DNA of 46,266 nt from Terriglobia bacterium. Lineage in GTDB: Bacteria; Acidobacteriota; Terriglobia; Terriglobales; Acidobacteriaceae. The notes beneath the pieces are model-generated. The model searched no databases. It was not told the DNA's origin and worked only from the letters and a program-made list of their open reading frames with translations. The stretch spans positions 1 through 46,266 of the forward strand of contig JAJPHW010000222.1 of NCBI GenBank assembly GCA_021325035.1, in the 5' to 3' direction. The position numbers and the translations under genes are program-made. Positions within the stretch are counted from its first letter, which is position 1. Every line of letters begins with the position of its first letter. Of this stretch, positions 24,525 through 44,661 are shown one piece after another.

Positions 24525-24784
24525 GCCAAAAACCTTTCGAGCAAAGTTATCTTGCTGCTATATCCTGTTGGCATTTCTTCACGGAGTAACATGCAGCCTG
24601 AACCTGTTGTAACCCGAAGTTAACCTTCTCGTCATGAAGCAGTAACAATCTCCCCTTAGAATTCAGGATTCTCAGTCTGAGCCCCTTGTAGATAGAATCC
24701 TTGTCCTATTTGTGCGTCAACGATTCGGGTGTTGGCGTCGTAGCCGGAAAATCATACGAGAATGTGATGGATGGAGGTAAGTTT

Positions 24785-27700
24785 GTGAGAATTGCGCGCA
24801 GTCTGATGAGTTGCTTAACACTTATTCTCGGCCTAACAGGCATCAGTTGCGCTCAAGATTTTAATTCGACTCCTCGCGACCAAACCAAGCTCGAATCAAT
24901 AGCCTCGGGCAAGGCAGTTGACATGGCGACATTGCTCAGGCCCATCCCAGACGTGCCAATCACGCCTGCGATGCCTTATGACAACCTTGCGGTAGTCAGC
25001 GGCAAAATCAAGGAAGCTTCGGGAAGGCCCCTCCCCGGAGCCTCTATAACAATCACTAGCGGATCCGGATCATCGCAGTCCACGACTAGCGACGGTGAAG
25101 GACGGTATGCTCTCAAGGTGCCGGCGGGAAACTACATACTCGCCGTGACGGCGAAAGGCCACAAGGATTTCGAAGCCAAGAATGTCAACCTAACTCCGGG
25201 ACTGTCGCTTCCTCTGAGCGTCGTTCTGGAGACCGGGAAGAACGCGCCAGCACCGGTCGCCTCTAGCACCGCTGCAAAGGGCAACCCCATAGCCAGCGCC
25301 ACGGAACCGGCGGTAAAGAAACCGAGAAAGCCTGCGTCGCTGAATGGGATGGTAACCGACGCGAATGGTGCCGCAATTCCCGGAGCAACGGTTTCGGTTA
25401 CGAATACCGCGGGACTCGGTAAGACTGTGACGGCGGATGCAAAGGGTGCATACAGCATCACCTCGCTCCCCCCGGGTACTTACGATTTTTCTGCATCGGC
25501 TGCCGGATTTAAGGCTTTCGATGCGCCGGGTGTGCGCTTAGAAAGCGGAATGCGCCTGCCGATGGATGCTACTCTAGAAGTCGAAGCGACGAAATCGAAC
25601 GCTTCACCGGCTGCGTCTACGTCAGACACAAGCTCGGATAGCGCCGCAGCAAAAACGAAGCCCGGCGAGCAAACTCAAAATTCTCAGGCTCAATCTTCAG
25701 CATCCTCGCAGGGTGCAGCACCACAGATCGGAGTTCCGCTGCCTGAAGTGCTGTTTTCGACTCCTGATTTACCCGCAGCGCCGCCCGGCGCGACAGCACA
25801 AGTTGCAACTCAAGCCAAGGTCGTTAGAGATGCAACGAGCGCCAGTCTAACGGGTGTTGTAGCTGATCTAACCGGCGCGGTGGTACCAGGAGCAACTGTT
25901 GCGGTTACAAACGGGTCCGGATTCAAACGAACTGCAACCAGTGATAACAAAGGTGCATACGCAATTAATGGGATACCGCCGGGTACTTATGATTTTTCTG
26001 CATCGGCTCCCGGTTTCAAACCTTTTCAGGCCCAAGCATTGAAGCTTGAGGCCGGCGAAGTCCAACCGATGGATGCGTCACTGGAAGTGGGCGGCGAAAA
26101 ACAGGAGATTAGCGTCGAAGGCTCCAAAGTTGCTGAAGTTGAAACTGAGAACGCGCAAGTCCAGGGAGTCGTGACGCAAAAAGAAGTACAAACTCTTCAA
26201 TTGAACGGTCGCAATTTTACCCAATTGATTGCGCTGACTCCTGGCGTCAGTAATCAGACGGGTCAGGACGAAGCCAAAGTCGGAGTTACGGGAAGTGTGA
26301 AATATAGCGTCAACGGCGGACGCGTAGAATATAACACGTTTGAGGTGGACGGCAGCGATGTGTTGAACGCGGGATTAAACGGTGCCCAGAGTACGTTGGT
26401 GGTTTATCCCAGCCTCGATGCGATTCAAGAAGTCAAAGTTCTCACTTCGAACTATGGCGCCCAGTACGGTCGCACCGCATCCGGTACCGTTATCGTCACT
26501 ACAAAAAGTGGAGGACCGGAATGGCACGGCAACGGATATGAGTTTTTCCGCAACGAGGCCTTAAACGCTCGGAATTACTTTGATCAGACCAAGAGTGCGC
26601 CCAAGTATCGCCGTAACGATTTCGGTTTCACAATCGGAGGCCCTCTCTATATTCCCGGTCATTACAACCCCAATAAAGACAAGACTTTTGTTTTCTGGTC
26701 GGAGGAGTTCCGCATCGAGAACTCTCCTAGCGATCTTCAGCCAAACTTCAATAGAGGTGTACCTTCCCTTGCGGAGCGCCAGGGAGACTTTAGCGATGTC
26801 TGCCCCGGACCGACCGACCCTTCCAACACGCTTGGATCAGGCTTATTCCTGCGCTCCATATGGCCCGATTGCCCCAGCCGGGGACCGTCCTCAACTTTGG
26901 GCTATCTTGCACAATTTAACAACCTTAAAAACAATAACCTGACCGACCCTGGAATATCGTTTTTGGATCCCAATGCACTGGCGTTGCTGGGCACGAACTT
27001 GATTCCGTTGCCCAATTCATCAACTGGTTGCAACTCACCCGTCGGTTCATGCTACGACGCCGTCATTTCGGTTCCCACACATTGGCGTGAGGAGCTATTC
27101 CGAATCGACCACCACTTTACTCCCAATTTGCAAGCGACATTCCGATATATCCATGATTCGTGGGACACTGTGACGCCGATTCCGGAATGGGGGTACGTCA
27201 CCAACAGTTTCCCTACCGTTCAAAATAAGTTGAAGGGGCCCGGTGTAAGTATGGTGGCGCGTTTGACTCAAACCATCACACCCTCACTGCTAAACGAATT
27301 CACTGCCAGCTACGTGGATTCTCATATAACTCTGAACAATCTTAATGGACCCGGCGGAGCGAACTACGCGCGACCTGCCGGATTGGGACAACCCGGAGGC
27401 ACGTGTACAGTCCTGGGAGTAGACGGGGGACAAGGGTGCCCGATGGGTGCGATTTTTAACAATGGCTTCGGCGGGAAGGCTCCCGGATTGGTCATCGCAG
27501 GAAACAACCTTGAATACGGTGGTAATGGATTCACTGTGGATCCTTCTTACGAGCCTTGGGATCATACCAACCCCACATATAGTTACCGCGATGATCTCAG
27601 CAAAGCGTTGGGGAAACATACTCTGCAGTTTGGTGGACAACTAATCTTCTACCAAAGAAACGAAAATAACCCGGCGGTCGGCGCAGCGACTGGCGACATC

Positions 27701-29755
27701 CAAGGTCTGACAACTTTCAGTAACATCAACGGGGGCTTCATGAACACGGGAAACGCATTCGCGAATTTTCTCGTAGCCTTCGATGAGCCGCAAACCTATA
27801 CCCCCATTCAAAGCTACGTACAGGACAGCTCGCAACAGCGATACTACAACCGGTACGTGATTGGCGAACCCTATGTTCAAGACGATTGGCGGGCGACTCC
27901 TCGTCTCACGGTTAATTTAGGTGTGCGCTTTAGCCTGTTCGGAACGTTTCATGAAAGATATCAGCGGGCTTACAACTGGGTGTCCTCCGCTTACAGTGCG
28001 CAACTCGCTTCGCAAGTTCGCGTCGACCCAAACACCGGCCAGTTACTCAGCGTGCCGCAACAATCGCCAATACCGCTGGATCTTAACAACCTTGATCCGC
28101 GGATAACAAACGGTTTGTTGCAATGCGGCAAAAACTTTGTACCCGATGGATGTATGAAGGGGCATGTTTTCAACCCCGCTCCCCGAATCGGCTTTGCCTG
28201 GGATCCAAAGGGCGATGGCAAGACATCCATTCGTTCAGGTTACGGCATGTTCTTTGAGCACGGGACCGGGCAGGAAGCGAATACTGGCTCACTGGAAGGC
28301 AGCGCTCCGCTGGTACTGAGCGTTGCGCAGCCCTTTCCTCAAAATTACGGTTGTATCGGTGGTTCGCAGACCTACTGTGCGGTGCAGCCCGGAGCATATC
28401 CCCTAAACGTCACCGCGATTCCAACTCAAGCAGTGTGGTCATATTCTCAGCAATGGAGTTTGAGCGTCCAGCGCCTGTTGCCCAAATCAATGGTTGCGAC
28501 CGTAGCTTACGTGGGTAGTAAGGGCACTCATCTTTCGGTAGAGCGTCAACTTAACCAACTCAGACCGCTGCCGGCAAATGAGAACCCCTTTGGTTTGCAT
28601 GAACCTTTAGTTCCCCAAGCTACGCTGTCTGGTCCGGGTGATTGTGGCGGATATGTAGCCAATGGTACGGAAGGCACTTTTACATTATTGAACGGAACTG
28701 TCATCGGCCCGCAAGACCCCGCTTACAACAACCTTATAGCAGCTTGCGCAGGATCGAACTCGCCTCCCTTCCAGACTGTGACCCCTAACGTGAACAGCGT
28801 AAGACCCTATCCTGGAATTGGGCAGATTTATTACTTACAGAATGGAGCGGACTCTTCTTACAACGCGCTACAAGCTACGATCCGGCGCACCCGAGGGCCG
28901 CTGACCGTGGGAGCGTCTTACTCATATAGCCACTCTATCGACGATTCGTCGGACCGCTCCACTTCCACTCCAGTGGATTCGTATAACCTGCGCTCAAACA
29001 GAGCAAGCTCAGATTTCGACCAGCGGCATTTACTGAATGTTAGTTACATCTATAATTTGCCCGACCTCAGCAAACTCATCCAAGGGTGGACCAGCGGTCT
29101 ATCAGGCCAGTCCACAGAAGAGCAATCGGATTCCCCTTCCCAGCCAAGTTCACCTTCGCGCTTATTGCGAGCACTTAGTTCAGGTTGGCAATGGTCAGGG
29201 ATCACTGTGGTGCAGTCTGGAACCCCATTCAGCATCATCAACGGAGGAAGTGGCTCAGTCTCGGTAGTGGACAATGCTGGTGTAGCGAATGGAATCGGCA
29301 CGGGCTCCTATCCTGACATCGTCGGAGATCCACATGGTCCGGCGCCGATTGGCGGCAACAACCCGAAAAGTTTTGGACCGATTCTCGGGAATCCCAATGC
29401 GTTCGCGGCTCCAAGAGGTTTGACCTTCGGAACCGCCGGACGGAACTCTTTCAACAATCCACGGCGAACAAATTTTGATATGAGTATCCTGAAGCACTTC
29501 ACAATTCGAAAATCAGACACCCTCGAACTGCGTTTCGAAGCATTCAACGTCTTCAATCACACACAATTTAGGATTTTCGATCCAAACATTGGGAATACTG
29601 GCAGTAATGTTATCAGTTGTTATGGTGGACCAAATTACACCGCAGGTTTTTCCGCAGTGGGTGGCACGGATTGCCTAACAGGTAATGCATTCCTTCACCC
29701 CGTAGATGCACACCGCGCCAGAACTATCCAGCTAGGGGCAAAGTACAGCTTTTAG
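24785..29755 (+). CDS. Oar-like TonB-dependent outer-membrane receptor with three carboxypeptidase-regulatory repeats
   Basis: The start is set at the GTG at 24785 because GGAGGT lies 6 nt upstream and a signal peptide follows at once (RIARSLMSCLTLILGLTGISCAQ). The product has 1656 residues. Three carboxypeptidase-regulatory-like beta-sandwich repeats lie at about residues 70-150, 185-267 and 355-437, separated by Ala/Ser/Pro-rich linkers. A plug domain follows (VQTLQLNGRNFTQLIALTPGVSN, then YGAQYGRTASGTVIVTTKSGG). The rest is a large beta-barrel ending in RARTIQLGAKYSF, with the terminal Phe typical of barrels. The receptor is related to the Myxococcus Oar protein. Substrates of this class are mostly unknown; uptake of polymers or secretion/adhesion are both possible. 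Confidence 0.9.
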   Translation: MRIARSLMSCLTLILGLTGISCAQDFNSTPRDQTKLESIASGKAVDMATLLRPIPDVPITPAMPYDNLAVVSGKIKEASGRPLPGASITITSGSGSSQSTTSDGEGRYALKVPAGNYILAVTAKGHKDFEAKNVNLTPGLSLPLSVVLETGKNAPAPVASSTAAKGNPIASATEPAVKKPRKPASLNGMVTDANGAAIPGATVSVTNTAGLGKTVTADAKGAYSITSLPPGTYDFSASAAGFKAFDAPGVRLESGMRLPMDATLEVEATKSNASPAASTSDTSSDSAAAKTKPGEQTQNSQAQSSASSQGAAPQIGVPLPEVLFSTPDLPAAPPGATAQVATQAKVVRDATSASLTGVVADLTGAVVPGATVAVTNGSGFKRTATSDNKGAYAINGIPPGTYDFSASAPGFKPFQAQALKLEAGEVQPMDASLEVGGEKQEISVEGSKVAEVETENAQVQGVVTQKEVQTLQLNGRNFTQLIALTPGVSNQTGQDEAKVGVTGSVKYSVNGGRVEYNTFEVDGSDVLNAGLNGAQSTLVVYPSLDAIQEVKVLTSNYGAQYGRTASGTVIVTTKSGGPEWHGNGYEFFRNEALNARNYFDQTKSAPKYRRNDFGFTIGGPLYIPGHYNPNKDKTFVFWSEEFRIENSPSDLQPNFNRGVPSLAERQGDFSDVCPGPTDPSNTLGSGLFLRSIWPDCPSRGPSSTLGYLAQFNNLKNNNLTDPGISFLDPNALALLGTNLIPLPNSSTGCNSPVGSCYDAVISVPTHWREELFRIDHHFTPNLQATFRYIHDSWDTVTPIPEWGYVTNSFPTVQNKLKGPGVSMVARLTQTITPSLLNEFTASYVDSHITLNNLNGPGGANYARPAGLGQPGGTCTVLGVDGGQGCPMGAIFNNGFGGKAPGLVIAGNNLEYGGNGFTVDPSYEPWDHTNPTYSYRDDLSKALGKHTLQFGGQLIFYQRNENNPAVGAATGDIQGLTTFSNINGGFMNTGNAFANFLVAFDEPQTYTPIQSYVQDSSQQRYYNRYVIGEPYVQDDWRATPRLTVNLGVRFSLFGTFHERYQRAYNWVSSAYSAQLASQVRVDPNTGQLLSVPQQSPIPLDLNNLDPRITNGLLQCGKNFVPDGCMKGHVFNPAPRIGFAWDPKGDGKTSIRSGYGMFFEHGTGQEANTGSLEGSAPLVLSVAQPFPQNYGCIGGSQTYCAVQPGAYPLNVTAIPTQAVWSYSQQWSLSVQRLLPKSMVATVAYVGSKGTHLSVERQLNQLRPLPANENPFGLHEPLVPQATLSGPGDCGGYVANGTEGTFTLLNGTVIGPQDPAYNNLIAACAGSNSPPFQTVTPNVNSVRPYPGIGQIYYLQNGADSSYNALQATIRRTRGPLTVGASYSYSHSIDDSSDRSTSTPVDSYNLRSNRASSDFDQRHLLNVSYIYNLPDLSKLIQGWTSGLSGQSTEEQSDSPSQPSSPSRLLRALSSGWQWSGITVVQSGTPFSIINGGSGSVSVVDNAGVANGIGTGSYPDIVGDPHGPAPIGGNNPKSFGPILGNPNAFAAPRGLTFGTAGRNSFNNPRRTNFDMSILKHFTIRKSDTLELRFEAFNVFNHTQFRIFDPNIGNTGSNVISCYGGPNYTAGFSAVGGTDCLTGNAFLHPVDAHRARTIQLGAKYSF
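25472..26008 (+). repeat. Near-identical DNA segments inside the second and third receptor repeats
   Basis: The 30-nt segments at 25472-25501 and 25979-26008 differ at a single position and both encode PGTYDFSASA. They lie at equivalent positions in two neighbouring regulatory-like domains that are otherwise clearly diverged. This points to tandem domain duplication with selection or gene conversion on this strand. Confidence 0.7.
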
Positions 29756-32523: not shown

Positions 32524-33261
32524 CTATAGGCTGCCAGCCGCCGATCCAATCATCTTGCCTGCGAGTCTTCGACGCGCAACGAATCCGGCAACAATTAGAC
32601 CGCTGCCAAATAACGCCAGTGACCCAGGTTCAGGCACGGGAGACGGAAACGTGGTAGTGCCATTCTGATCTGTCCAAGTGATTGGCTTACCAGTGCCACC
32701 CCCACCGGGTTTACCAGTTTCGGTGGTGATATTGACGTTGCCTGCAGTGATATTGTTAAACACCATGCCATTACCCAAAGTTAACGTGCCGTCAATAACT
32801 TGCCCAGAGTAAATCCAAAACGCCGTCCCCAACTGAGCCTTACCGAACTTCTGCCAGGTTGCGCCTTGGGCGAAAATGCCGGAGAAGGTAAATCCACCGC
32901 CAGCGCCTGTGCTCGTCACATCGAGACTCCCGCCTTGGTTGAAAATAGCAGGCGTGTACCCGGTTCCCGTCGCGTTATCGGCGGGATTAAGCGCTCCACT
33001 CATGAGCGTTCCCGTCATTAATGTCACCGTACCTGCACAAGCGGGCGGTGGACAATTGTACGGCGAGAACAATCCGCTGACGCCACTCAGTGTTGAACCA
33101 GACAATGTCAGCGTCGTGTGCGCATTGTTGGATGTCCAAGTTCCGTCGTTGTTGGTAAAAACGGTGTTTGAATCTGCCCAAACAATAGCGTTTGCGCAGA
33201 GCAACCATAGAACCAGTGTCAAGTAAGGCAGAGTTCTACTGCGCTTCGATTTCTCTTCCAT
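32524..33261 (-). CDS. PEP-CTERM sorting domain protein
   Basis: The ATG at 33261 is preceded by GGAGG at 5 nt; an upstream in-frame TTG at 33273 is less likely. The product of about 245 residues has a signal peptide (TLPYLTLVLWLLCANAIVWA) and a Gly/Thr/Asn-rich beta-type body. The C-terminal sorting signal is VPEPGSLALFGSGLIVAGFV followed by ARRR. PEP-CTERM proteins are cut by exosortase at or near the PEP motif and are usually surface- or matrix-associated. An exosortase and EpsI are encoded directly upstream. About 12 residues follow the arginine cluster, a slightly long tail for the family. The function of the body is unknown. Confidence 0.9.
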   Translation of the reverse strand: MEEKSKRSRTLPYLTLVLWLLCANAIVWADSNTVFTNNDGTWTSNNAHTTLTLSGSTLSGVSGLFSPYNCPPPACAGTVTLMTGTLMSGALNPADNATGTGYTPAIFNQGGSLDVTSTGAGGGFTFSGIFAQGATWQKFGKAQLGTAFWIYSGQVIDGTLTLGNGMVFNNITAGNVNITTETGKPGGGGTGKPITWTDQNGTTTFPSPVPEPGSLALFGSGLIVAGFVARRRLAGKMIGSAAGSL

Positions 33262-33478
33262 TCTCGCCTCCAAGAAAGATTTCTTGCAGTAAACCGATTA
33301 CAAATAAAACCAGAAGACTCTGAGCCAAAGCTAAGACTTCGAGTTGCATTCATAGTAGCTCTGAGACAATCCGCATTTATTGCTGGAGTATTAACATTTC
33401 GTTAAATTCCACCGTACTCCGTGGGAAAAATGTGGAAAACAAAGCGTAGGATGCTGGTCAAGCTCGTGAAACTTCTTT

Positions 33479-34132
33479 TCAGCGCGGAATGTATGCATCC
33501 AATCGGGGAATCATCTGTTGTAGCAATGAAGTAAGTCGTAGCTGAGCGTCGGCAATGCTTTCAGATTTTTGAATCTCGGTAGTAGCGCGTATTAAAGAAC
33601 CGTCGCTACGATTCATGCGAATCGAATCCTCAATCAAATAGAACTTTGCAAGGTACTCGTTTGCCACTGCGCGATTATGGGCCCAATACCAGTACAGAAC
33701 GAGTGCACGGGTAGAACCTTTTCCTACTAGATATCGATTAACAACAATAGGAGCACGACCAGGCACAAAAAGTGTGATTCGGGTCGAGTCGAGGGGTTGC
33801 CAGCCTGCGCCAGGTAAACAATTCTTGGGAGAATGGATCGTGGCACCCACTCGCTGGGTGGGAAAGTATGCCGCAAAGATGTTCACAGCAGAAGCGCTAT
33901 GACTAGTGTCTTCATAATTACGAAATAGAAAATCGCCCGGACCAAGTACGCGGACTACGTCGGGTGAAATACTCACGTCAGTTCCCATCCAAGTGCCAAA
34001 CTGTTGCGGGAAAGAGGCCAGGCTCTGGCGCGGCGGTATGACTTCATCAACAGTCCGGATTCGAAGAAAAAGTCCGGTGGAAGTAAGCAGCAGGACGGTG
34101 GCAAAGAATCTAAAATTCGGTGCCACAGGCAT
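33479..34132 (-). CDS. EpsI family protein (exosortase-associated)
   Basis: The chosen start is the ATG at 34132 (MPVAPNFRFFATVLLL), preceded by GAGG, rather than the more distant start at 34198. The 217-residue product has one N-terminal membrane helix and the EpsI-domain segments FPQQFGTWMGTD and IHSPKNCLPGAGW, plus ALVLYWYWAHNR. EpsI domains occur fused to, or next to, exosortases in polysaccharide/PEP-CTERM loci. Their exact role is not established. The coding region overlaps the exosortase end by 23 nt, so the two are translationally coupled. Confidence 0.9.
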   Translation of the reverse strand: MPVAPNFRFFATVLLLTSTGLFLRIRTVDEVIPPRQSLASFPQQFGTWMGTDVSISPDVVRVLGPGDFLFRNYEDTSHSASAVNIFAAYFPTQRVGATIHSPKNCLPGAGWQPLDSTRITLFVPGRAPIVVNRYLVGKGSTRALVLYWYWAHNRAVANEYLAKFYLIEDSIRMNRSDGSLIRATTEIQKSESIADAQLRLTSLLQQMIPRLDAYIPR

Positions 34133-35018
34133 ATCCTCTTTTTCGATCCATATATGCGAGAACTCGCTGCACCAGTAACAAAATCCCGATGGCGGCAACG
34201 AATAGCAGCCAGCCGGAAAATAAATGAAAAAAACCTTCTGCTCTATGTGGATCCCAATATTGCACCAGTAACCCTGTAACGATAATTCGCAAACTATTGG
34301 TAATAATCGCGATTGGAACCGCAGTCAACGCCATGACTATACGGGTCCAATTTCGACCTCCGGCCAAATAGCCAAAAATGATCGCCAATGCGATTAACGA
34401 AACAAGCGAGCGCACACCGCTACATGCTTCGGCAACCTCCAACGATAATACCGGTAAATTAATGATGTTGCCTTCGCGTAATACTGGCACGCCGCACAGC
34501 GGCAGCACCGACGCGGCAATCTTGGACACCAATGTCTGGAGGGGCATTGTCACTTGGTTGAAAATGAGTTCGGGGATCGGAATCATCAGAAACAAAAACA
34601 CCCACGGAAAAAGAAGCCTACGGAAATAGTTCCATCCGAGAAATAAAATGACCAGCCCGGCCAGCAGCAGAAGCAAGGAAACACGCGAAAAAAATAGTTC
34701 GGCGCCGAGAACACCGATTCCAAGAATAAGGAGCGAAAACGCCAATAACGGGAACCCAAACCATGACGGTTTGGGTCGTAAGCTGCGGAGGTAGAAACGA
34801 TCCCGCCAGATTACAAAAATTGAAAAGATTGGAACTAAAAATCCGTGCGAAAAATCCGGGTCGGCCCACCACTGCTCTAGCAAGCGAAAAATGATCGAAG
34901 CGTATAACCAAAACACTAAACCTGCAATAATAGCTATACGTGGCCACAACCTTCTGGTTGTTTGAGCTGCGACGTAATCTCTCTCCGCCGAAACTCCGAG
35001 ATGCGCCAAATGACTCAT
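34110..35018 (-). CDS. Exosortase (EpsH/XrtA-type transpeptidase)
   Basis: This 302-residue polytopic membrane protein has about eight helices. It shows the exosortase catalytic triad: Cys199 in EVAEACSGVRSL, Arg244 in TNSLRI and His265 in GFFHLFSGW. The N-terminal family motif DPDFSHGFLVP is at 53-63. Exosortases process the C-terminal PEP-CTERM signal of exported proteins, a function analogous to sortase. The gene is followed by EpsI (overlapping) and one PEP-CTERM protein, and is divergent from an exopolysaccharide export operon, which is the typical genomic setting. The exact Xrt subtype was not determined. Confidence 0.94.
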   Translation of the reverse strand: MSHLAHLGVSAERDYVAAQTTRRLWPRIAIIAGLVFWLYASIIFRLLEQWWADPDFSHGFLVPIFSIFVIWRDRFYLRSLRPKPSWFGFPLLAFSLLILGIGVLGAELFFSRVSLLLLLAGLVILFLGWNYFRRLLFPWVFLFLMIPIPELIFNQVTMPLQTLVSKIAASVLPLCGVPVLREGNIINLPVLSLEVAEACSGVRSLVSLIALAIIFGYLAGGRNWTRIVMALTAVPIAIITNSLRIIVTGLLVQYWDPHRAEGFFHLFSGWLLFVAAIGILLLVQRVLAYMDRKRGYACGTEF

Positions 35019-35427
35019 GCGTTATAAACCAATTGCTCAACTAAAAACGCAAGGTGCTCTGCGATTTCTATCGTATCTTTAACGCTTTTGCCCGTCACCC
35101 GTTAAGAGCCAGGCAAATAAGAGCCAGGCAAACCCAACCGTTGCAGCCAGATGTACGATTCTATAAGAGGCGCAATTACTTGAAGGAAAAGCCCATAACT
35201 TTTAGCAGAAAATTAACATAAGCCCCATCCGAATGTTCCCGCGGTGTGATATTCCTTAACAAGTTGTTTTCGCAAGGAGCAACCGGCCGGGATCCACTAT
35301 CTCGCACGGCAGATTCCACATTGTTTAACCCTAGGGATCCCTTCGCAGCGGAGTCTGGCTTGTCGTTTAAACCCGCCGGACTGCCAAGGTGGCCTACCGG
35401 CGGAAGGCTGGAAGAGTCGGCAAAGGA
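35019..35427. other. Divergent promoter region between exosortase and polysaccharide export operon
   Basis: These 409 nt separate the two divergent units and must contain both promoters. They contain a 15-bp perfect tandem repeat at 35103-35132. An in-frame GTG at 35389 could extend the export protein by 13 residues. No sigma-54 consensus was recognised. Confidence 0.4.
35103..35132. repeat. 15-bp perfect tandem repeat
   Basis: TAAGAGCCAGGCAAA occurs twice head to tail (35103-35117 and 35118-35132), about 85-115 nt upstream of the exosortase start. It may be a direct-repeat protein-binding site or simple slippage duplication. Confidence 0.6.
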
Positions 35428-36054
35428 ATGAGACTTACGGCGCCCAAAGTTGTACTTGGAGTATTACTTATCCTGGGTCTTCCGACTATGGGGGCGCGGG
35501 CTTTGGTCGATCCAAAACCTGCAAGCTCCCAGTCCGCGCCTCCTACAGATGGAACGAGTTCTTTGATTCAAAGCCCCGGCTATCTCATTGGCCCCGATGA
35601 TATTTTGCATATCCAGGTATGGAAGGAACCAGAACTTGGCGCCACATTGCCAGTTAGAACCGACGGTAAGATATCTCTGCCTCTAATTAATGACGTGCAG
35701 GCCGCGGGCATGACTCCTGTCGAATTGGCCGGTTCCATCACTGAAAAGCTGAAGAAATACTTTGATGACCCTCGGGTCACGGTCATGGTTTCGCAAATGA
35801 CGCACCAGCGAGTTTACGTGGTAGGCGAGGTAATGAGCCACGGACCGATGGTGCTTTTGCCAGATATGACGGTACTACAGGTTTTGGCAACTTCAGGCCT
35901 CACTCAGTTTGCTAACCGCAAGAAGATTTACGTACTTCGGACAACAAATGGGCACGAGCAGAAATTCCCGGTTAACTATAAGCGATTGTTGAAGGGAGAT
36001 CAGATGAGCCAGAACATCAAACTGCAACCGGGGGATACGATCGTCGTACCGTAG
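35428..36054 (+). CDS. Polysaccharide export protein (Wza-like, SLBB domain)
   Basis: The ATG at 35428 gives 208 residues. A signal-like hydrophobic segment (VVLGVLLILGLPTMGARA) has no lipobox cysteine. The Poly_export domain follows (YLIGPDDILHIQVWKEPEL ... RTDGKISLPLINDVQAAG ... DDPRVTVMV), then one SLBB domain (RVYVVGEVMSHGPM ... VLQVLATSGL). These proteins form the periplasmic or outer-membrane part of the polysaccharide export channel. The short length and absence of a lipid anchor differ from E. coli Wza. It is the first gene of the export operon; a Wzz-like gene begins 17 nt later. Confidence 0.92.
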   Translation: MRLTAPKVVLGVLLILGLPTMGARALVDPKPASSQSAPPTDGTSSLIQSPGYLIGPDDILHIQVWKEPELGATLPVRTDGKISLPLINDVQAAGMTPVELAGSITEKLKKYFDDPRVTVMVSQMTHQRVYVVGEVMSHGPMVLLPDMTVLQVLATSGLTQFANRKKIYVLRTTNGHEQKFPVNYKRLLKGDQMSQNIKLQPGDTIVVP

Positions 36055-36071
36055 GCCCAAGCCTTGAACTT

Positions 36072-37628
36072 ATGATCGCAAATCGTGAATTAGGAATGGA
36101 GGATTATCTGGCTATCGCCAAGCGGCGCGCCAAGATAGTTATATTTCCGGCGCTTATTGCTGCCCTTTTGGGATTCCTTATCTCTTACGCTTTGCGGCCT
36201 AAATACACATCCCAGGCACTGCTCGCAGTGACACGTCAGTTGATGCCAGCTGGCTATGTAAAGCCGATTATTACAGAGAAAATAAGTGACCGGATGATCG
36301 CACTGGAGCAACAGGTACTCAGTCGCAGTCGCTTGCGCCCTCTTGTTAGCCGTTTCGGGCTGGCCAACAATGGCAAGACCGAAGACGAAGTAATCGACCA
36401 GATCCAGCAGAACGTCCAGGTTACACAAGCTGACCCGAGTAATCCGACCGCCGGGCCAAGCGCAAGTACTCTCTCCAAGAAGAAGACAAGCTTTGACGAT
36501 AGCGGAGATGTTCCGGGCTTCTACGTGAACTACACCGCCGACAATCCGCGGAACGCCCAACTTGTGTGCGCAGAAATAACGTCGATGCTCTTGGAAGCCA
36601 ATTTAGAACTACGTCAGCAAGTCGCCCAGAGCACAACCGACTTCCTTTCGCAACAACTCCAGCAGGCCAAACAAAATCTCGACGAACTAGACGCGAAACT
36701 AGCTGAATTCAAGAAGTTACATCTCGGCCATTTGCCCACAGACGAAGACAAGAACCTTCGAATTCTTACGGGCTTGGATGCCCAACTGGATGCGAATGTT
36801 CAGGCTATGGATCGGGCACAGCAGGATAAATCTTTTGCCGAGTCGGAGTTAGCGCAAGAGATGTCGGCGTGGAAGCTCGCGCAAGGGTCTCCAAATCTAC
36901 CGCCGTTACGCCAGCAATTGGTAAACCTCGAAAATCAGCTCGTTGAAATGAAGAGCCGTTACACCGATGACCACCCTGACGTCGTGAAATTGCAAAAAGA
37001 CATCGCCGACCTTAAAGCCACCCTCAAGATGGACCCCGCACAGAATCCGTTTCCGGAAGATCCACAGGCAAAGATGGAACCCGCCGAGATTTTGCGTTTG
37101 AAGGAGCAGATCCATCAGAACACAGAAATCATCGCGCGGACGTCGCGTGAACAGAAGCGCATTCAGGGATTGATCGATACCTATCAGGATCGCCTGCAAC
37201 TAAGTCCCGAGGTTGAAGAACAGTACAAGCAACTGACCCGGGACAACGAAACCGCGCACACGATTTACGACGGCCTCTTGACGAACCAGAATGCTGCACA
37301 GATGCAAACGGACATGGAACGCAAGCAGGAAGGGGAACAAATTAGATTGCTCGATCCTGCGAGCCTTCCCGACGCCCCAAGCTTTCCAATTCGTTGGATG
37401 TTTGCGCTCGGAGGGCTTGGTGCAGGCTTGTGTGTTGGAATCAGCATTGCATTCTGGAAAGAGATGCAAGACAAAGGCATCCGAAGTGAAAGTGACGTTG
37501 TGGCTGCATTGGAATTACCGATGCTTGTCTCTTTGCCGTGGGCATTCGCGCCTGCGAATGGAAAAGAGCACCGAAGTAGGTTTCTTGGCCAGTTCGAACG
37601 GATGCATAAAAGAGACAAGAGCGCATAG
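36072..37628 (+). CDS. Polysaccharide chain-length determinant (Wzz/GumC-like)
   Basis: This 518-residue inner-membrane protein has a first helix at about 21-41 (KIVIFPALIAALLGFLISYAL) and a second near the C-terminus at about 447-467 (ALGGLGAGLCVGISIAFW). Between them is a large periplasmic coiled-coil domain rich in Gln, Leu, Lys and Glu, with LVNLENQLVEMKSRYTDDHP. The N-terminal Wzz motif includes ALRPKYTSQALLAV. Such co-polymerases set polymer length together with a partner tyrosine kinase, which is encoded downstream. No Walker motifs are fused here. An alternative start is Met9 at 36096. Confidence 0.9.
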   Translation: MIANRELGMEDYLAIAKRRAKIVIFPALIAALLGFLISYALRPKYTSQALLAVTRQLMPAGYVKPIITEKISDRMIALEQQVLSRSRLRPLVSRFGLANNGKTEDEVIDQIQQNVQVTQADPSNPTAGPSASTLSKKKTSFDDSGDVPGFYVNYTADNPRNAQLVCAEITSMLLEANLELRQQVAQSTTDFLSQQLQQAKQNLDELDAKLAEFKKLHLGHLPTDEDKNLRILTGLDAQLDANVQAMDRAQQDKSFAESELAQEMSAWKLAQGSPNLPPLRQQLVNLENQLVEMKSRYTDDHPDVVKLQKDIADLKATLKMDPAQNPFPEDPQAKMEPAEILRLKEQIHQNTEIIARTSREQKRIQGLIDTYQDRLQLSPEVEEQYKQLTRDNETAHTIYDGLLTNQNAAQMQTDMERKQEGEQIRLLDPASLPDAPSFPIRWMFALGGLGAGLCVGISIAFWKEMQDKGIRSESDVVAALELPMLVSLPWAFAPANGKEHRSRFLGQFERMHKRDKSA

Positions 37629-37714
37629 GGACAGGAACAAGTTCAGTTTAGTGCAGGGGAAGGAATCGGCCGGCATCTCTGCGGTAAGGTCAGGCAACAG
37701 GGGAAATAAATCCA

Positions 37715-38581
37715 ATGAGCCAAATGCATAAGCCCCAAGGAAACATCGAACCGCACGGAGATGCCGGGAGCGATGAAAAAGCGGGCAGGAGCGATGAGCA
37801 TGCAAAACAAGTTACTCCGATGCTGATCAACCCAGCTGACGCTATGACGCGCGATACTGTTTTGGCCGATTGCGTTCGCAAGATGTGGACGCCGGATTCG
37901 AATTCGCTGTTGGACTTTAACGGTACCGCACCCTCCCACGGGGTTGAAGAATTTCGCGCATTACGTTCTCGTCTTTATCAGTTACAGGCAAAAGCGCAAC
38001 TAAAATCTATCTTGGTCGGAAGTGCCCTGCCAGGCGAGGGAAGAACATTTGTTGCGGCAAATCTCGCCCTGGCCTTAGCTCTCCAGCCGGAATGTCGTGT
38101 CTTGCTTATCGATGCAGATTTGCGCAATCCCCGTCTTCATTCCGCATTGGGGACAGTTCGCGCGCCGGGATTTTCGGAATACTTATTACAAGAAGTGGAA
38201 GAGTTTGGGATCATGCAGAAAGGCACCCCGGACAATCTCTTTTTTATCCCGGCGGGACGACCCATTGCAGGGCCGACCGAACTCGTCGCCAATGGCCGAC
38301 TGAAGTTTCTTATGGACAGAGTTGAACCTTTGTTCGACTGGATTATTGTGGATTCACCACCCGCAGTCCCGGTATCGGACGCATGCTTGCTCGCCAACTA
38401 TTGCGATGGTGTATTGATGGTCGTGCGTTCCGACTCAACGCCATTCGATATCGTCCGCAAAGCGCGCGACAGGTTTCCTGAAGAGTCTCTCGTTGGCGTT
38501 GTACTGAATGTCATCGAGTCCGACCGCACCCCGAATGCAACTTCTTCGGGGGCCAATGATGGCCTCCAAATTCGAGGTTGA
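37715..38581 (+). CDS. BY-kinase-like (CpsD/CapB family) P-loop ATPase with altered Walker A
   Basis: This 288-residue protein matches bacterial tyrosine autokinases of polysaccharide export. It has a polar N-terminal 70 residues, the EEFRALRSRL segment, and a Walker A region at 102-111. Walker A' is LLIDADLRNPRLH (131-143) and Walker B is DWIIVDSPPA. Walker A reads GSALPGEGRT, so the invariant lysine is replaced by Arg110 (codon AGA). The C-terminal tail (residues after VVLNVIESDR) contains no tyrosines, although BY-kinases normally end in a Tyr cluster. It may therefore be a poorly active or regulatory partner of the Wzz-like protein encoded upstream. The family assignment is firm, but kinase activity is doubtful. 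Confidence 0.88.
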   Translation: MSQMHKPQGNIEPHGDAGSDEKAGRSDEHAKQVTPMLINPADAMTRDTVLADCVRKMWTPDSNSLLDFNGTAPSHGVEEFRALRSRLYQLQAKAQLKSILVGSALPGEGRTFVAANLALALALQPECRVLLIDADLRNPRLHSALGTVRAPGFSEYLLQEVEEFGIMQKGTPDNLFFIPAGRPIAGPTELVANGRLKFLMDRVEPLFDWIIVDSPPAVPVSDACLLANYCDGVLMVVRSDSTPFDIVRKARDRFPEESLVGVVLNVIESDRTPNATSSGANDGLQIRG

Positions 38582-40770: not shown

Positions 40771-42618
40771 CTAGAATGCATACCATGCGCCACTCGTACC
40801 CATGCACATAGCAGGGGGCGGAGTACAAGCATCAATTTTGGTAAATACGCTACGGCCATAGAAAAACGGCAAGCCCCAGTCAAAACTACAAGAAGTACCT
40901 CCGCCCACACACGCCGGCATGGATTGCTCCGGCCCGGCCAATGTGTCAAACGCTGCGCCGCCGGGATACATCGAAAATAGCCTGTCAGCATTATCAACAC
41001 TAAAATTGACGACTGCACTTCCTTGAGTGGCGCCTTGGTCAGTCGCCGTAAGGTTCGTTAAAGATCCCGGGCAAAAGAATTGTGAATCGGATGTGCAGAC
41101 AGGAAGCGAATCGGGGAAAAACAGTCCATTCGCGCCACTGTCAATGAAACTACTGACAAGGTTTTGACCTTGAAAAGTTGTGGTGAAGTGGTCGTTTGCA
41201 TCCAGAGTAAGAATGGTTGCGTTCCCCAGGAGATTGTTGATCTGTGTATTGATACCGAAAATCAACAATCCGTTCACCGTCGCGCCAGGACCGGCGGGTA
41301 CCGGCAATTGAAGAATGCTACCGGTATTGTCTGCGAAAAGCGTAATGGGATTCGTTACTTGCTGGCGAGACGCCGTTGTCGCAATCACCGGCGAATCAGT
41401 CGTAGCACATCCAGCTAACGGGGCGCAGCTATAATAAAGATTCGGCAAAGTTGCGTTCGTGCTTCCGTCGCAATAGTTCGTTCCAGCCAACGTGCAGTCT
41501 GTAGGTTCTAATCCAATTCCCAAGATGCCGTTGGCACCCAATAATTGTGGCGTATTCGAATTCTGGACGCCCCCATTGGTGCAACCATCGGGTACAACAG
41601 CGTCTGCGGTGGGAATTAATTGAAAAGGCAAAGTGAGTGCTACTTCTCCTCCTATATATACGTCCGCTGACGACACCGCTCCCCATCGGTACGCTCCATT
41701 TGCGAGGGACTGGCAGTTCTCAAGGGTATTTCCTATGCCATCCGTGATCGTGTGGAATTTGAGCATGGGCACAGCCGACTGAAGGATCCGCAGGCCTACC
41801 GATCCGGTATCCACTAATATGCCATCAACGACTTGGCAGGCGACTGTGCTGCCCGGCTGGCATATCAAAATGCTGGTAAATGCTCCATTCGCATAAGTTT
41901 GCCCTGGCACTTGGCCGCCGTTCACGCTTACTGGAACAACATTCGGGCCGGCGCCTGAGGGCAGGACATAAATTGTTACGGAGGCTGAAGCGGTAGGAGT
42001 ATCCACCGAAGTTGCCGTAACAGTTACCGCAGTCTGGGACGACACGGTGCTCGGCGCCGTGTACAGAGCCTGGCTGGCAAATGTCGCCTGCAAAGTACCA
42101 GCGCCAGTAGCGGGGGATAGGGACCATGTCACGCCGTGGGGTCCCGACGGCGTGACCGTCGCTACCATTGTCGTCTGCGCACCTTGGTTAAGTGTGAACG
42201 GAGCCAGGGCAAGGCCAAACGTGTTAGTCAGAGACACAAGCACAGGGGACACGATGATTTCCACCGAAGCGGTAATTGTCGGGTTTGTAATCGAGGTGGC
42301 GATGATGGTTGCCTTTCCAGTCTGTGTTATCTGAGCTGGGGCGGTATAGGTCACAGCGGTTGCGGTGCCAGCGCTTAGAGTACCGAAGGTCGCGGGAGAA
42401 AGCGTCCACGTCACTCCCTGCTTATTCGGATCATATACAGTAGCCTCAATTGTGACAGCTTCGCCAACGCTTATGCTCGAAGCAGGTCCCGAAAGTGTAA
42501 TCGAAATGGGAGCTCCGGAGGTTGACGAACCACCGCCGCAGGAAGCAAGAAATAAAACTGACAGCAAGAATCCGAGCCAAACAAATTTGCGTACAATCCT
42601 TATGCTAGCGGACATCAT
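40771..42618 (-). CDS. DUF3443 lipoprotein with Big-type repeats, possible pepsin-like fold (copy A)
   Basis: This 615-residue protein has a lipoprotein signal (FLLSVLFLASCGGG, Cys27). Two Ig-like repeats lie at about 38-123 and 127-218 (VTWTLSPATFGTL and VTWSLSPATGAGTL). The DUF3443 domain follows. It carries GILVDTGSVGLRIL (Asp270), GAYRWGAVSSADVYIGG (about 308-324), GANGILGIGLEP (361-372) and SSFIDSGANGLFF (Asp493). The order matches the N-lobe DTG, flap, DGILGLG and C-lobe DSG/DTG of pepsin-type peptidases, so an aspartic peptidase fold is inferred. Many cysteines suggest disulfides. GGAGGGGGTGAG precedes the ATG, and the gene overlaps DUF2844 by 14 nt. Confidence 0.85.
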   Translation of the reverse strand: MMSASIRIVRKFVWLGFLLSVLFLASCGGGSSTSGAPISITLSGPASSISVGEAVTIEATVYDPNKQGVTWTLSPATFGTLSAGTATAVTYTAPAQITQTGKATIIATSITNPTITASVEIIVSPVLVSLTNTFGLALAPFTLNQGAQTTMVATVTPSGPHGVTWSLSPATGAGTLQATFASQALYTAPSTVSSQTAVTVTATSVDTPTASASVTIYVLPSGAGPNVVPVSVNGGQVPGQTYANGAFTSILICQPGSTVACQVVDGILVDTGSVGLRILQSAVPMLKFHTITDGIGNTLENCQSLANGAYRWGAVSSADVYIGGEVALTLPFQLIPTADAVVPDGCTNGGVQNSNTPQLLGANGILGIGLEPTDCTLAGTNYCDGSTNATLPNLYYSCAPLAGCATTDSPVIATTASRQQVTNPITLFADNTGSILQLPVPAGPGATVNGLLIFGINTQINNLLGNATILTLDANDHFTTTFQGQNLVSSFIDSGANGLFFPDSLPVCTSDSQFFCPGSLTNLTATDQGATQGSAVVNFSVDNADRLFSMYPGGAAFDTLAGPEQSMPACVGGGTSCSFDWGLPFFYGRSVFTKIDACTPPPAMCMGTSGAWYAF

Positions 42619-43132
42619 TAGGGCTCACCCCCTCCGGTAGCAACGTCGGATCATAAGCACGTCCGGAAAAAGCGCGCATGTGTCCCGCCGATTGCACGAC
42701 GAGATTCGGTTCGCGAATGTCCAAAGGACGATGTCCTAAATAACCTGACCGCGCTTCGTTTGCAGCCGATGAGTATCGGTCGAAATAAGCTCCAAGTATC
42801 TGGTGCATGTCGGGAGTGAATGGTCCCTGCCATGCGACGCCAAACACACGTCCCGCTGGCGTTAGATACTCTCTCACCACGGTCCCGGAAGCCTCGGTGA
42901 TTTCTTGCACAGAACAAGAATCGTGCTGAACAGCGCTCGTTGTTGAACTAGGCGCAATCTTCATCCGATCAGACTCGACAGAAGAGAGGTCACCTCCAAG
43001 CGAAGCGAATGCGGGCAAAGACAGGAAGGTGAGCAATAGGACTATCCTTATCTGCGCCGAGCTACTATTCGAGTAGATTTTTTCGCGACATGGGTTCTTC
43101 ATCGTCATCCACCAAATTCTTATATTCCTCAT
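42605..43132 (-). CDS. DUF2844 family secreted protein
   Basis: The ATG at 43132 overlaps the TGA of the upstream DUF3443 gene (ATGA), which fixes the start; a longer frame from 43282 is not credible. The 175-residue product has a signal peptide (IRIVLLLTFLSLPAFASLGG). The DUF2844 domain follows, with SVQEITEASGTVVREYLTPAGRVFGVAWQGP and MHQILGAYFDRY. The family is a small exported domain of unknown function, frequently encoded next to DUF3443. Here it sits between two DUF3443 genes with overlaps on both sides, so the three are surely co-translated. A chaperone, inhibitor or substrate role toward DUF3443 is possible but unproven. Confidence 0.88.
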   Translation of the reverse strand: MRNIRIWWMTMKNPCREKIYSNSSSAQIRIVLLLTFLSLPAFASLGGDLSSVESDRMKIAPSSTTSAVQHDSCSVQEITEASGTVVREYLTPAGRVFGVAWQGPFTPDMHQILGAYFDRYSSAANEARSGYLGHRPLDIREPNLVVQSAGHMRAFSGRAYDPTLLPEGVSPNDVR

Positions 43133-44661
43133 GGTGCGGGGAAACTCGTCGTGTACGCCCACCAAGGAGCAGCAGGTGTGTTTATTGGCGGGGACTGACC
43201 ACGCACCGTCGTAAAAATAGTCCGCCCGTAGAAAAACGGCACGCCAAAAATAAAGCTGCATGCCCCTGTGCCATCCGAACATAATCCCGTGCCGTTGGGC
43301 CCACCCAGCCCGCTAAATGCCACATCTCCAGGATTGTTTGTGAGTAGGTCTGAAGCGTTATCAATAGTGAAGTAATTCGTATCCTGCGACTTGTTCACAC
43401 CTATGCTGGTGACTGTGAGAGAAATCGGGGCGGCTGGGCAAAAAAACAACGCGTATGGACTTGCGCACGTAGTGATCGCATCATCTGGGAAAAAGAACGC
43501 ATTCGAACCACTATCCAAGAAGCTGGAGGTCAATGTTTGGCCCGTTTCAGACAGCTTGACGGTAAAGTTGTCGTTGGCGTCCAGAGTAAAAATCGTTTGG
43601 GTTCCAATCTGATTATTGCTCTGTGTTCCAACGCCGAAAGTCAAAAAACCTGTGAGATTGCCCGCAGATCCAGACACAGAAGGAAGTTGCAAGACTGTCC
43701 CATTATTGTCGATCCCAAAAAATGTGGCGGGGTGGTTCACTTGCTGCGCGAGTGATGCGAACGCCGCAGTGCAACTACCACCTGTGCAGGTGTAATATGC
43801 CGCGCCCGGAGGTGTCGCGCCCGCGGCAGCAACGCACGCTGCGCCGCAATCTTGTGGTTCAACGCCAATGCCTAGAATTCCATTTGCCCCTAAGGCATCG
43901 AGGCTGTCTTTGTCGCCTTCTGTTCCGGTCGCCGCACAGTCTGATGGAATGGAATAGCCACTTGGATCTGCAATTGCTTGTATGGGCAGAGACGCCGCTA
44001 TCTCCCCGTTAATTCGTACGTCAGCCAACTCGACCTGCCCCCATATATAGGATTGGTCTTCAAACTGAAAACACTCATTCAAAATGTCGCCGCTGCTATC
44101 TTTAACAGGCGTAAGAGTGGGTAGCGCGGAAGCAAGAATCCTTAGCCCGACGGTGCCTGTATCCACGAGGATGCCATTGATGGTTTTACAATTCGTACTT
44201 CCCGTAGTGCATACATCAACGCTGGTAAATGCAGCGTTTGGATAACTATGTGAAGATGGTCCCCCGTCAACGCTAACACCTTGCACATTGCCGAACACGT
44301 TAAACGGCACTACGGTAAGTGGTAAGTATGCGCTGGCTCCGCTGGCTGTGGTCGCAGTAACAACCGCGTAGGCGTTCTGGCCAGTGAAGGAGGGAGCGAG
44401 ATACGTCGCGACATTGGGCGGCTGGTTTGGAAGCTGCGTCGCGTTTGCAAGCGTGCCTGCTCCGGACACAGTCCAAGTTACGAGCGACCCATCGGAGGCA
44501 GCTGCGTTGATGGTCAGGGTCGAACCAGCATTGATCGACCGGCCAACCGATGGCGTAAGCGTGACAGTAGCTGGAACCTTCGAGCTTGCGCTTCCACCGC
44601 CGCCACATCCGGCCGCGAGAGCCAAACTCACCAAAATAATTCCAAAAGCAACCCGACGCAC
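43129..44661 (-). CDS. DUF3443 lipoprotein, possible pepsin-like fold (copy B)
   Basis: This 510-residue protein is the first gene of the DUF3443-DUF2844-DUF3443 operon. It has a lipobox (VSLALAAGCGGGG, Cys19) and one Ig-like repeat (about 30-118, VTWTVSGAGTL). The DUF3443 domain carries GILVDTGTVGLRIL (Asp167), QSYIWGQVELADVRING (203-219), GANGILGIGVEP (258-269) and SSFLDSGSNAFFF (Asp383). It ends in FGVPFFYGRTIFT, matched in the paralogue by WGLPFFYGRSVFT. It differs from copy A mainly by having a single N-terminal repeat. The two-motif arrangement again suggests a bilobed aspartic peptidase-like fold at the cell surface. Confidence 0.85.
   Translation of the reverse strand: MRRVAFGIILVSLALAAGCGGGGSASSKVPATVTLTPSVGRSINAGSTLTINAAASDGSLVTWTVSGAGTLANATQLPNQPPNVATYLAPSFTGQNAYAVVTATTASGASAYLPLTVVPFNVFGNVQGVSVDGGPSSHSYPNAAFTSVDVCTTGSTNCKTINGILVDTGTVGLRILASALPTLTPVKDSSGDILNECFQFEDQSYIWGQVELADVRINGEIAASLPIQAIADPSGYSIPSDCAATGTEGDKDSLDALGANGILGIGVEPQDCGAACVAAAGATPPGAAYYTCTGGSCTAAFASLAQQVNHPATFFGIDNNGTVLQLPSVSGSAGNLTGFLTFGVGTQSNNQIGTQTIFTLDANDNFTVKLSETGQTLTSSFLDSGSNAFFFPDDAITTCASPYALFFCPAAPISLTVTSIGVNKSQDTNYFTIDNASDLLTNNPGDVAFSGLGGPNGTGLCSDGTGACSFIFGVPFFYGRTIFTTVRGQSPPINTPAAPWWAYTTSFPAP

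Follow-up and report, generated by a model that had tools for sequence, protein, structure and literature searches.

A family of predicted lipoproteins with a predicted pepsin fold (DUF3443) and its DUF2844 partner in a Terriglobia bacterium

Two proteins of the DUF3443 family are encoded on either side of a DUF2844 gene in a Terriglobia bacterium (Acidobacteriaceae), and the question raised by this locus is what such a pair of families, both still annotated in Pfam as of unknown function, could do. The locus lies in a stretch of 46,266 nucleotides (nt) of contig JAJPHW010000222.1, hereafter the window. It comprises copy B (43129..44661; 510 amino acids, aa), the DUF2844 gene (42605..43108) and copy A (40771..42618; 615 aa), all three on the minus strand, as are the domains and codons located in them below. 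A preliminary description, based on motifs, had proposed that the DUF3443 proteins are pepsin-type bilobed aspartic peptidases. Our analysis suggests that DUF3443 is quite probably a lipid-anchored, disulfide-rich, single-chain, bilobed aspartic endopeptidase of the envelope with a pepsin fold, made together with a DUF2844 protein that most likely controls or serves it.

The principal evidence comes from the predicted structure of the copy B domain (residues 125-510, nt 43132-44289). The AlphaFold2 model, built from a 74-row alignment, has a predicted local distance difference test score (pLDDT) of 92.9 and a predicted template modelling score (pTM) of 0.92, with all five models at pLDDT values of at least 92. 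A Foldseek search of the PDB with this model returned 125 matches at E ≤ 0.001, the best being endothiapepsin (E 1.2e-11, probability 1.00), and the 50 best rows of both the Foldseek and the VIA-align lists are all pepsin-type aspartic peptidases. VIA-align 2 gave Z 22-25 across its 50 best rows with up to 291 aligned residues, for example Z 24.9 over 291 residues at 3.1 Å with the aspartic proteinase of Irpex lacteus (1wkr) and Z 23.0 over 273 residues at 2.9 Å with human pepsin. Model residues 1-383 align with pepsin residues 2-326, and therefore both lobes are matched. Structure prediction had been named in the preliminary description as a check of its proposal, and for copy B it thus returned a whole-length match to two-lobed A1 peptidases. 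The query-normalised TM-scores from Foldseek are moderate (0.46-0.54), as would follow if the angle between the lobes and the inserts differ from those of pepsin. Judging from the model, a bilobed pepsin-like acid-protease fold is near certain for DUF3443, and the whole-length match implies that the two Asp residues of copy B would face each other over the cleft. Copy A, whose corresponding domain spans residues 225-615 (nt 40774-41946), presumably shares this fold, being 45% identical to copy B.

The motifs that had led to the proposal, namely GILVDTG[ST]VGLRIL, an aromatic/Gly flap-like segment ending in ADVYIGG or ADVRING, GANGILGIGxEP and SSF[IL]DSG[AS]N, are all present in the claimed order in both copies. 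The distances between the putative catalytic Asp residues also agree with those first given: 223 residues in copy A, between D270 (DTG; codon 41809..41811) and D493 (DSGA; 41140..41142), and 216 in copy B, between D167 (DTG; 44161..44163) and D383 (DSG; 43513..43515). Relatives were sought in one genome per species, which gave at least 420 loci; the best 80 were used, from Acidobacteriota and Proteobacteria including many Paraburkholderia, most of them soil Acidobacteriota and Burkholderiales. Conservation was counted in an alignment of 74 DUF3443 domains, numbered here according to the copy B domain. Both Asp residues and both glycines of the DxG motifs are found in 74/74 sequences, an invariance which indicates that the motif pair is more than chance. 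Further invariant columns are R50, W83, G84, D90, N136, G140, D147, F346, G349, F352, F353 and G355, and ten Cys columns are each conserved in 68-74 of the 74 domains. Copy A is the only one of these sequences with Ala at the position equivalent to pepsin 218 (DSGA). An additional sample covered 200 genomes of one order, and in 19 of them a DUF3443 match exceeds the cut-off; no intact copy in this sample lacks either Asp residue, and DTA replaces DTG in one. This DTA copy (L116) and a copy split over two frames (L113/L115, genome G674) are possibly decaying or altered copies.

The DUF3443 proteins appear to act outside the cytoplasm. Copy B has a lipobox-like LAAGC within MRRVAFGIILVSLALAAGC and copy A has LASC; the strict lipobox pattern is passed by 90 of 106 members, and most of the listed exceptions display GCGGG or SCGGG behind a hydrophobic stretch. 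The lipobox and the ten conserved cysteines fit an exported, membrane-anchored lipoprotein, while DUF2844 has an ordinary signal peptide with the cleavage site LSLPAFA^SLGG. Catalysis by DUF3443 is likely. The protein would be exported, lipidated and folded with disulfides; one Asp from each lobe (DTG[ST] and D[ST]G[ST]) would together activate a water molecule, which would attack a peptide bond of a chain lying in the cleft, and the proteins cleaved in this way would be those of the envelope or surface. DUF2844 would be co-exported and would restrain, fold or activate the peptidase, or else be its dedicated substrate, and peptidases A and B of the window would share a single DUF2844 protein.

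Family assignment of the three genes is clear. Copies A and B match PF11925 with E 2e-93 and 2.3e-102 (scores of 313.7 and 343.1 bits, the cut-off being 25), over residues 225-602 and 125-503 and over model positions 4-359 and 5-367 of 367, respectively. The small, predicted secreted DUF2844 protein matches PF11005 over all model positions (1-130 of 130; E 6.1e-40, 136.6 bits against a cut-off of 22.4). Copies A and B are the sole DUF3443 copies of the source genome and DUF2844 is likewise present as a single copy. The start of copy B, a GTG codon, and that of copy A are both preceded by GGAGG. The longest open reading frame of DUF2844 begins at 43282, its likely start being the ATG at 43108, about 20 nt after the stop of copy B, and its 3' end overlaps the start of copy A. 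Because of this close packing, the three genes look like an operon in the order B - DUF2844 - A. Copy A has an N-terminal extension of about 190 aa (residues 30-220) with two apparent Ig-type repeats, matched by no Pfam model in the Pfam search; that of copy B is shorter.

The association with DUF2844 extends far beyond this genome. In 80 of 82 loci a DUF2844 gene on the same strand accompanies DUF3443, in nearly every case immediately upstream of it (1.2 kb upstream in L080); in the remaining two, L006 and L008, the contig breaks off at this point. All further full-length DUF3443 copies also have DUF2844 close by, in reversed order in L103 and L105 with the genes still adjacent. Across 274 genomes of one class, the two families are co-present or co-absent in 274/274, the same three genomes holding both (5, 1 and 1 copies, 7 of each family) and 271 holding neither. 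The two families are linked, and no other widely conserved neighbour was found in the 82 loci. Five DUF3443-DUF2844 pairs are present in the single genome of Paraburkholderia madseniana (G199, L014). Compared two by two, its DUF3443 copies mostly show differences at 50-60% of positions, a hint that their substrates may differ.

Most likely, DUF2844 binds DUF3443 and controls or serves it. Counting against the proposed peptidase and partner are the fold search and tree comparison of DUF2844, several features around the active site, and the profile searches, each given below with the alternative explanation on which it bears. The DUF2844 model is a compact alpha+beta domain (pLDDT 89.4, pTM 0.82) that has no clear match in the PDB (best Z 6.6). 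Among the rows at Z 3.5-6.6 are the N-terminal domain of a CAP protein, YpeB, a BLIP-like domain and DUF2874, a resemblance of the predicted fold that is only a hint. A profile match of DUF2844 to a designed repeat protein, over a short stretch of synthetic sequence, was disregarded. Comparison of the paired DUF3443 and DUF2844 trees gave r 0.35 for 105 pairs, and 10 of the 120 permutations among five paralogue pairs were as good as the real pairing. We tentatively consider that DUF2844 could be an inhibitor or pro-region, perhaps PepSY/BLIP-like, that has its own gene and restrains a lipid-anchored pepsin; if so, the locus would represent a two-gene zymogen system replacing the in-cis propeptide of eukaryotic pepsins. 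It is also conceivable, if doubtful, that DUF3443 matures DUF2844, which would then be no regulator but a dedicated substrate, secreted to act as a structural or signal protein. The obligate pairing, its own signal peptide and its conserved C-terminal end would suit such a substrate, whereas its prediction as a single compact ordered domain with no obvious variable cleavage linker argues against one, as does its similarity to PepSY/BLIP-like partner domains, very weak though it is.

Comparison with the active site of pepsin bears on whether DUF3443 is a peptidase at all. By motif position, D32, G122, D215 and G302 of pepsin would correspond to D43, G140, D259 and G349. The spacing between each Asp and the Gly of its psi loop is similar (D43-G140, 97 residues against 90 in pepsin; D259-G349, 90 against 87), and most of the wider Asp-Asp spacing (216-223 against 183) comes from a longer G140-D259 segment with an insert that includes four conserved cysteines at 148-173. 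The ILG motif of the N-lobe psi loop is clear. Its C-lobe candidate reads DWG (D in 73/74, W in 67/74 and G in 74/74), the position of pepsin Trp39 (D+7) is an invariant Arg, and Asp303 is apparently replaced by Leu in the motif-position alignment. Candidates for the flap Tyr75 are F76 (Phe in 71/74), Y81 (Tyr in 57/74) and W83 (74/74). The flap residue is most likely F76, as the strands of the model are 69-75 and 81-93 and F76 ends the first of them; Phe would then stand for Tyr. Bacterial A1 homologues, too, can have a flap Phe, Leu at 303 or Ala at 218, and in them changes at 218 and 303 were tied to neutral pH (PMC2761423); since shewasin D nevertheless works at acidic pH (PMC4814920), we refrain from proposing a pH optimum for DUF3443. 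A classical propeptide would find no room between lipobox and domain in the short members, one of which (L003) has only about 25 residues between the lipobox Cys and the domain; such missing space is no proof against self-inhibition.

These substitutions raise the alternative of a pepsin fold without proteolysis, in which DUF3443 would serve in the envelope as a binding protein or inhibitor built on the acid-protease scaffold, comparable to the xylanase inhibitors of plants (TAXI). The Arg at the Trp39 position, the probable Leu for Asp303 and a flap Tyr that is not assignable all speak for it. In addition, neither DUF3443 nor DUF2844, and no activity of either, is mentioned in the searched literature, where queries by family accession returned only Plasmodium papers, apparently through PF11_005x gene names. 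Nonetheless, we regard such a protein as unlikely because both Asp residues and both glycines are invariant, the Asp residues are retained in the more divergent intact copies, and the described inactive proteins of the pepsin fold have their C-lobe catalytic Asp replaced (PMC11313796).

The window also offers a neighbourhood that might explain the pair. An exosortase/exopolysaccharide (EPS) locus at 32524-38581 includes genes for a PEP-CTERM protein (32524-33273), an EpsI-like DUF3485 protein (33479-34198) and an exosortase (34110-35018), as well as Wza/Wzc-like polysaccharide export, chain-length and tyrosine-kinase genes, so that DUF3443 and DUF2844 could belong to this cluster and process PEP-CTERM or EPS proteins. 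This appears very unlikely, given that the EPS genes at 35.4-38.6 kb lie on the opposite strand and that DUF2844 alone is a widely conserved neighbour in the 82 other loci. As the neighbourhood is not conserved across DUF3443 loci, such a role was dropped as a general explanation.

Sequence comparison alone does not place DUF3443 in the known A1 family; the preliminary description is supported as regards the pepsin fold of the copy B model, but no sequence match supports membership of A1/PF00026. No PF00026 match was reported among the 74 members, and profiles of 4 and of 74 DUF3443 sequences gave no significant match in the PDB. With hhalign, alignments of 4 and of 8 A1 members (in the latter, five sequences are provisional; the pepsin sequence was verified letter for letter) reached a probability of at most 10% and aligned with DUF3443 only locally, around the Asp motifs. 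Searches of copy A and of copy B with phmmer did not find a solved relative. That chance produced the motifs and that the fold has nothing to do with pepsin, as the silence of these profiles might be taken to mean, is strongly contradicted by Z 22-25 over both lobes of a model with high pLDDT and can hardly be entertained. Weak bridges to other families do exist. The homologue L007 matches PF20729 (PE-PGRS_C) over N-lobe residues 44-149 with E 3e-5 and 23.9 bits, the best score of any DUF3443 member, which none raises to the gathering score of 33 bits. Similarity to Asp_protease_2 is found, weakly, in 6 of the 74 members, and L107 and L111, two proteins encoded in genomes of the Paraburkholderia order, match Asp_protease_2 (E 3e-4 and 2e-4) and DUF3443 (E 4e-4 and 4e-3) in one shared stretch. 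All these matches are below Pfam cut-offs, and they agree with the predicted structure and lend it support. The latter two proteins (L107:352-2394 and L111:331-2331) are predicted to be lipoproteins, each about 670 aa long and carrying four Asp motifs in its chain (EIDTGS, FDSGA, VDTGSVGLRVL and YDTGTA), with no adjacent DUF2844; each resembles a tandem of two bilobed aspartic-peptidase units.

Relative to known systems, DUF3443 would be a bilobed aspartic peptidase that is unusual in its location, its active-site surroundings and its fixed partner. It has in common with pepsin-type A1 enzymes (MEROPS A1, PF00026; human pepsin 1pso, polyporopepsin 1wkr and endothiapepsin 4ape) the two lobes, a D[TS]G in each, the N-lobe ILG and the spacing from Asp to psi loop. 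It differs from them in its low identity (8-17%) without a significant sequence match, its predicted nature as a bacterial lipoprotein, the four-Cys insert after the N-lobe psi loop, the Arg at the Trp39 position, the lack of a classical propeptide and the obligate DUF2844 neighbour. The literature treats pepsins as rare in bacteria and, in the cases studied, as mainly cytoplasmic proteins (PMC2761423, PMC4814920), with the mycobacterial PecA type as a surface-located exception (PMC6819658). Pepsin homologues such as shewasins A and D are bilobed and bacterial like DUF3443, and in some of them the flap Tyr position is occupied by Phe, position 218 by Ala or position 303 by Leu (PMC2761423); however, they match PF00026, none of those surveyed has a signal peptide, and shewasin D is found mainly in the cytoplasm (PMC2761423, PMC4814920). 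The C-terminal domain of PecA/PE_PGRS16 (PF20729), the nearest sequence family by hidden Markov model, is likewise part of a bacterial, surface-located aspartic peptidase with DTG and DSG motifs (PMC6819658). The predicted location of DUF3443 is thus closer to that of PecA, on the mycobacterial surface, than to that of the surveyed A1 proteins, but PecA is a PE protein exported by the type VII system, whereas DUF3443 is a predicted signal-peptide lipoprotein of Acidobacteriota and Proteobacteria. Retropepsin-like bacterial peptidases (Asp_protease_2 type, APRc and enzymes of P. aeruginosa) are single lobes, in contrast to the two lobes per DUF3443 chain.

The fold assignment could already be contained in automatic structure classifications. 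The pair points to an overlooked group of bacterial envelope proteases: DUF3443, for which one genome collection contains at least 420 loci, looks like a family of exported, lipid-anchored pepsins with a fixed partner. Two families of unknown function thereby gain a biochemistry that can be tested, and exported members enter the debate on how the two-lobed pepsins originated. In bacterial genomes, two other loci (L085:1390-2616 and L086:1090-2352) encode true PF00026 homologues whose N-terminal ends look like signal sequences. The A1 proteins in a 2009 survey of bacteria had no signal peptide (PMC2761423). Elsewhere in the window, positions 24701-29755 encode an outer-membrane beta-barrel protein of 1684 aa that has a TonB plug and several carboxypeptidase-regulatory-like repeats.

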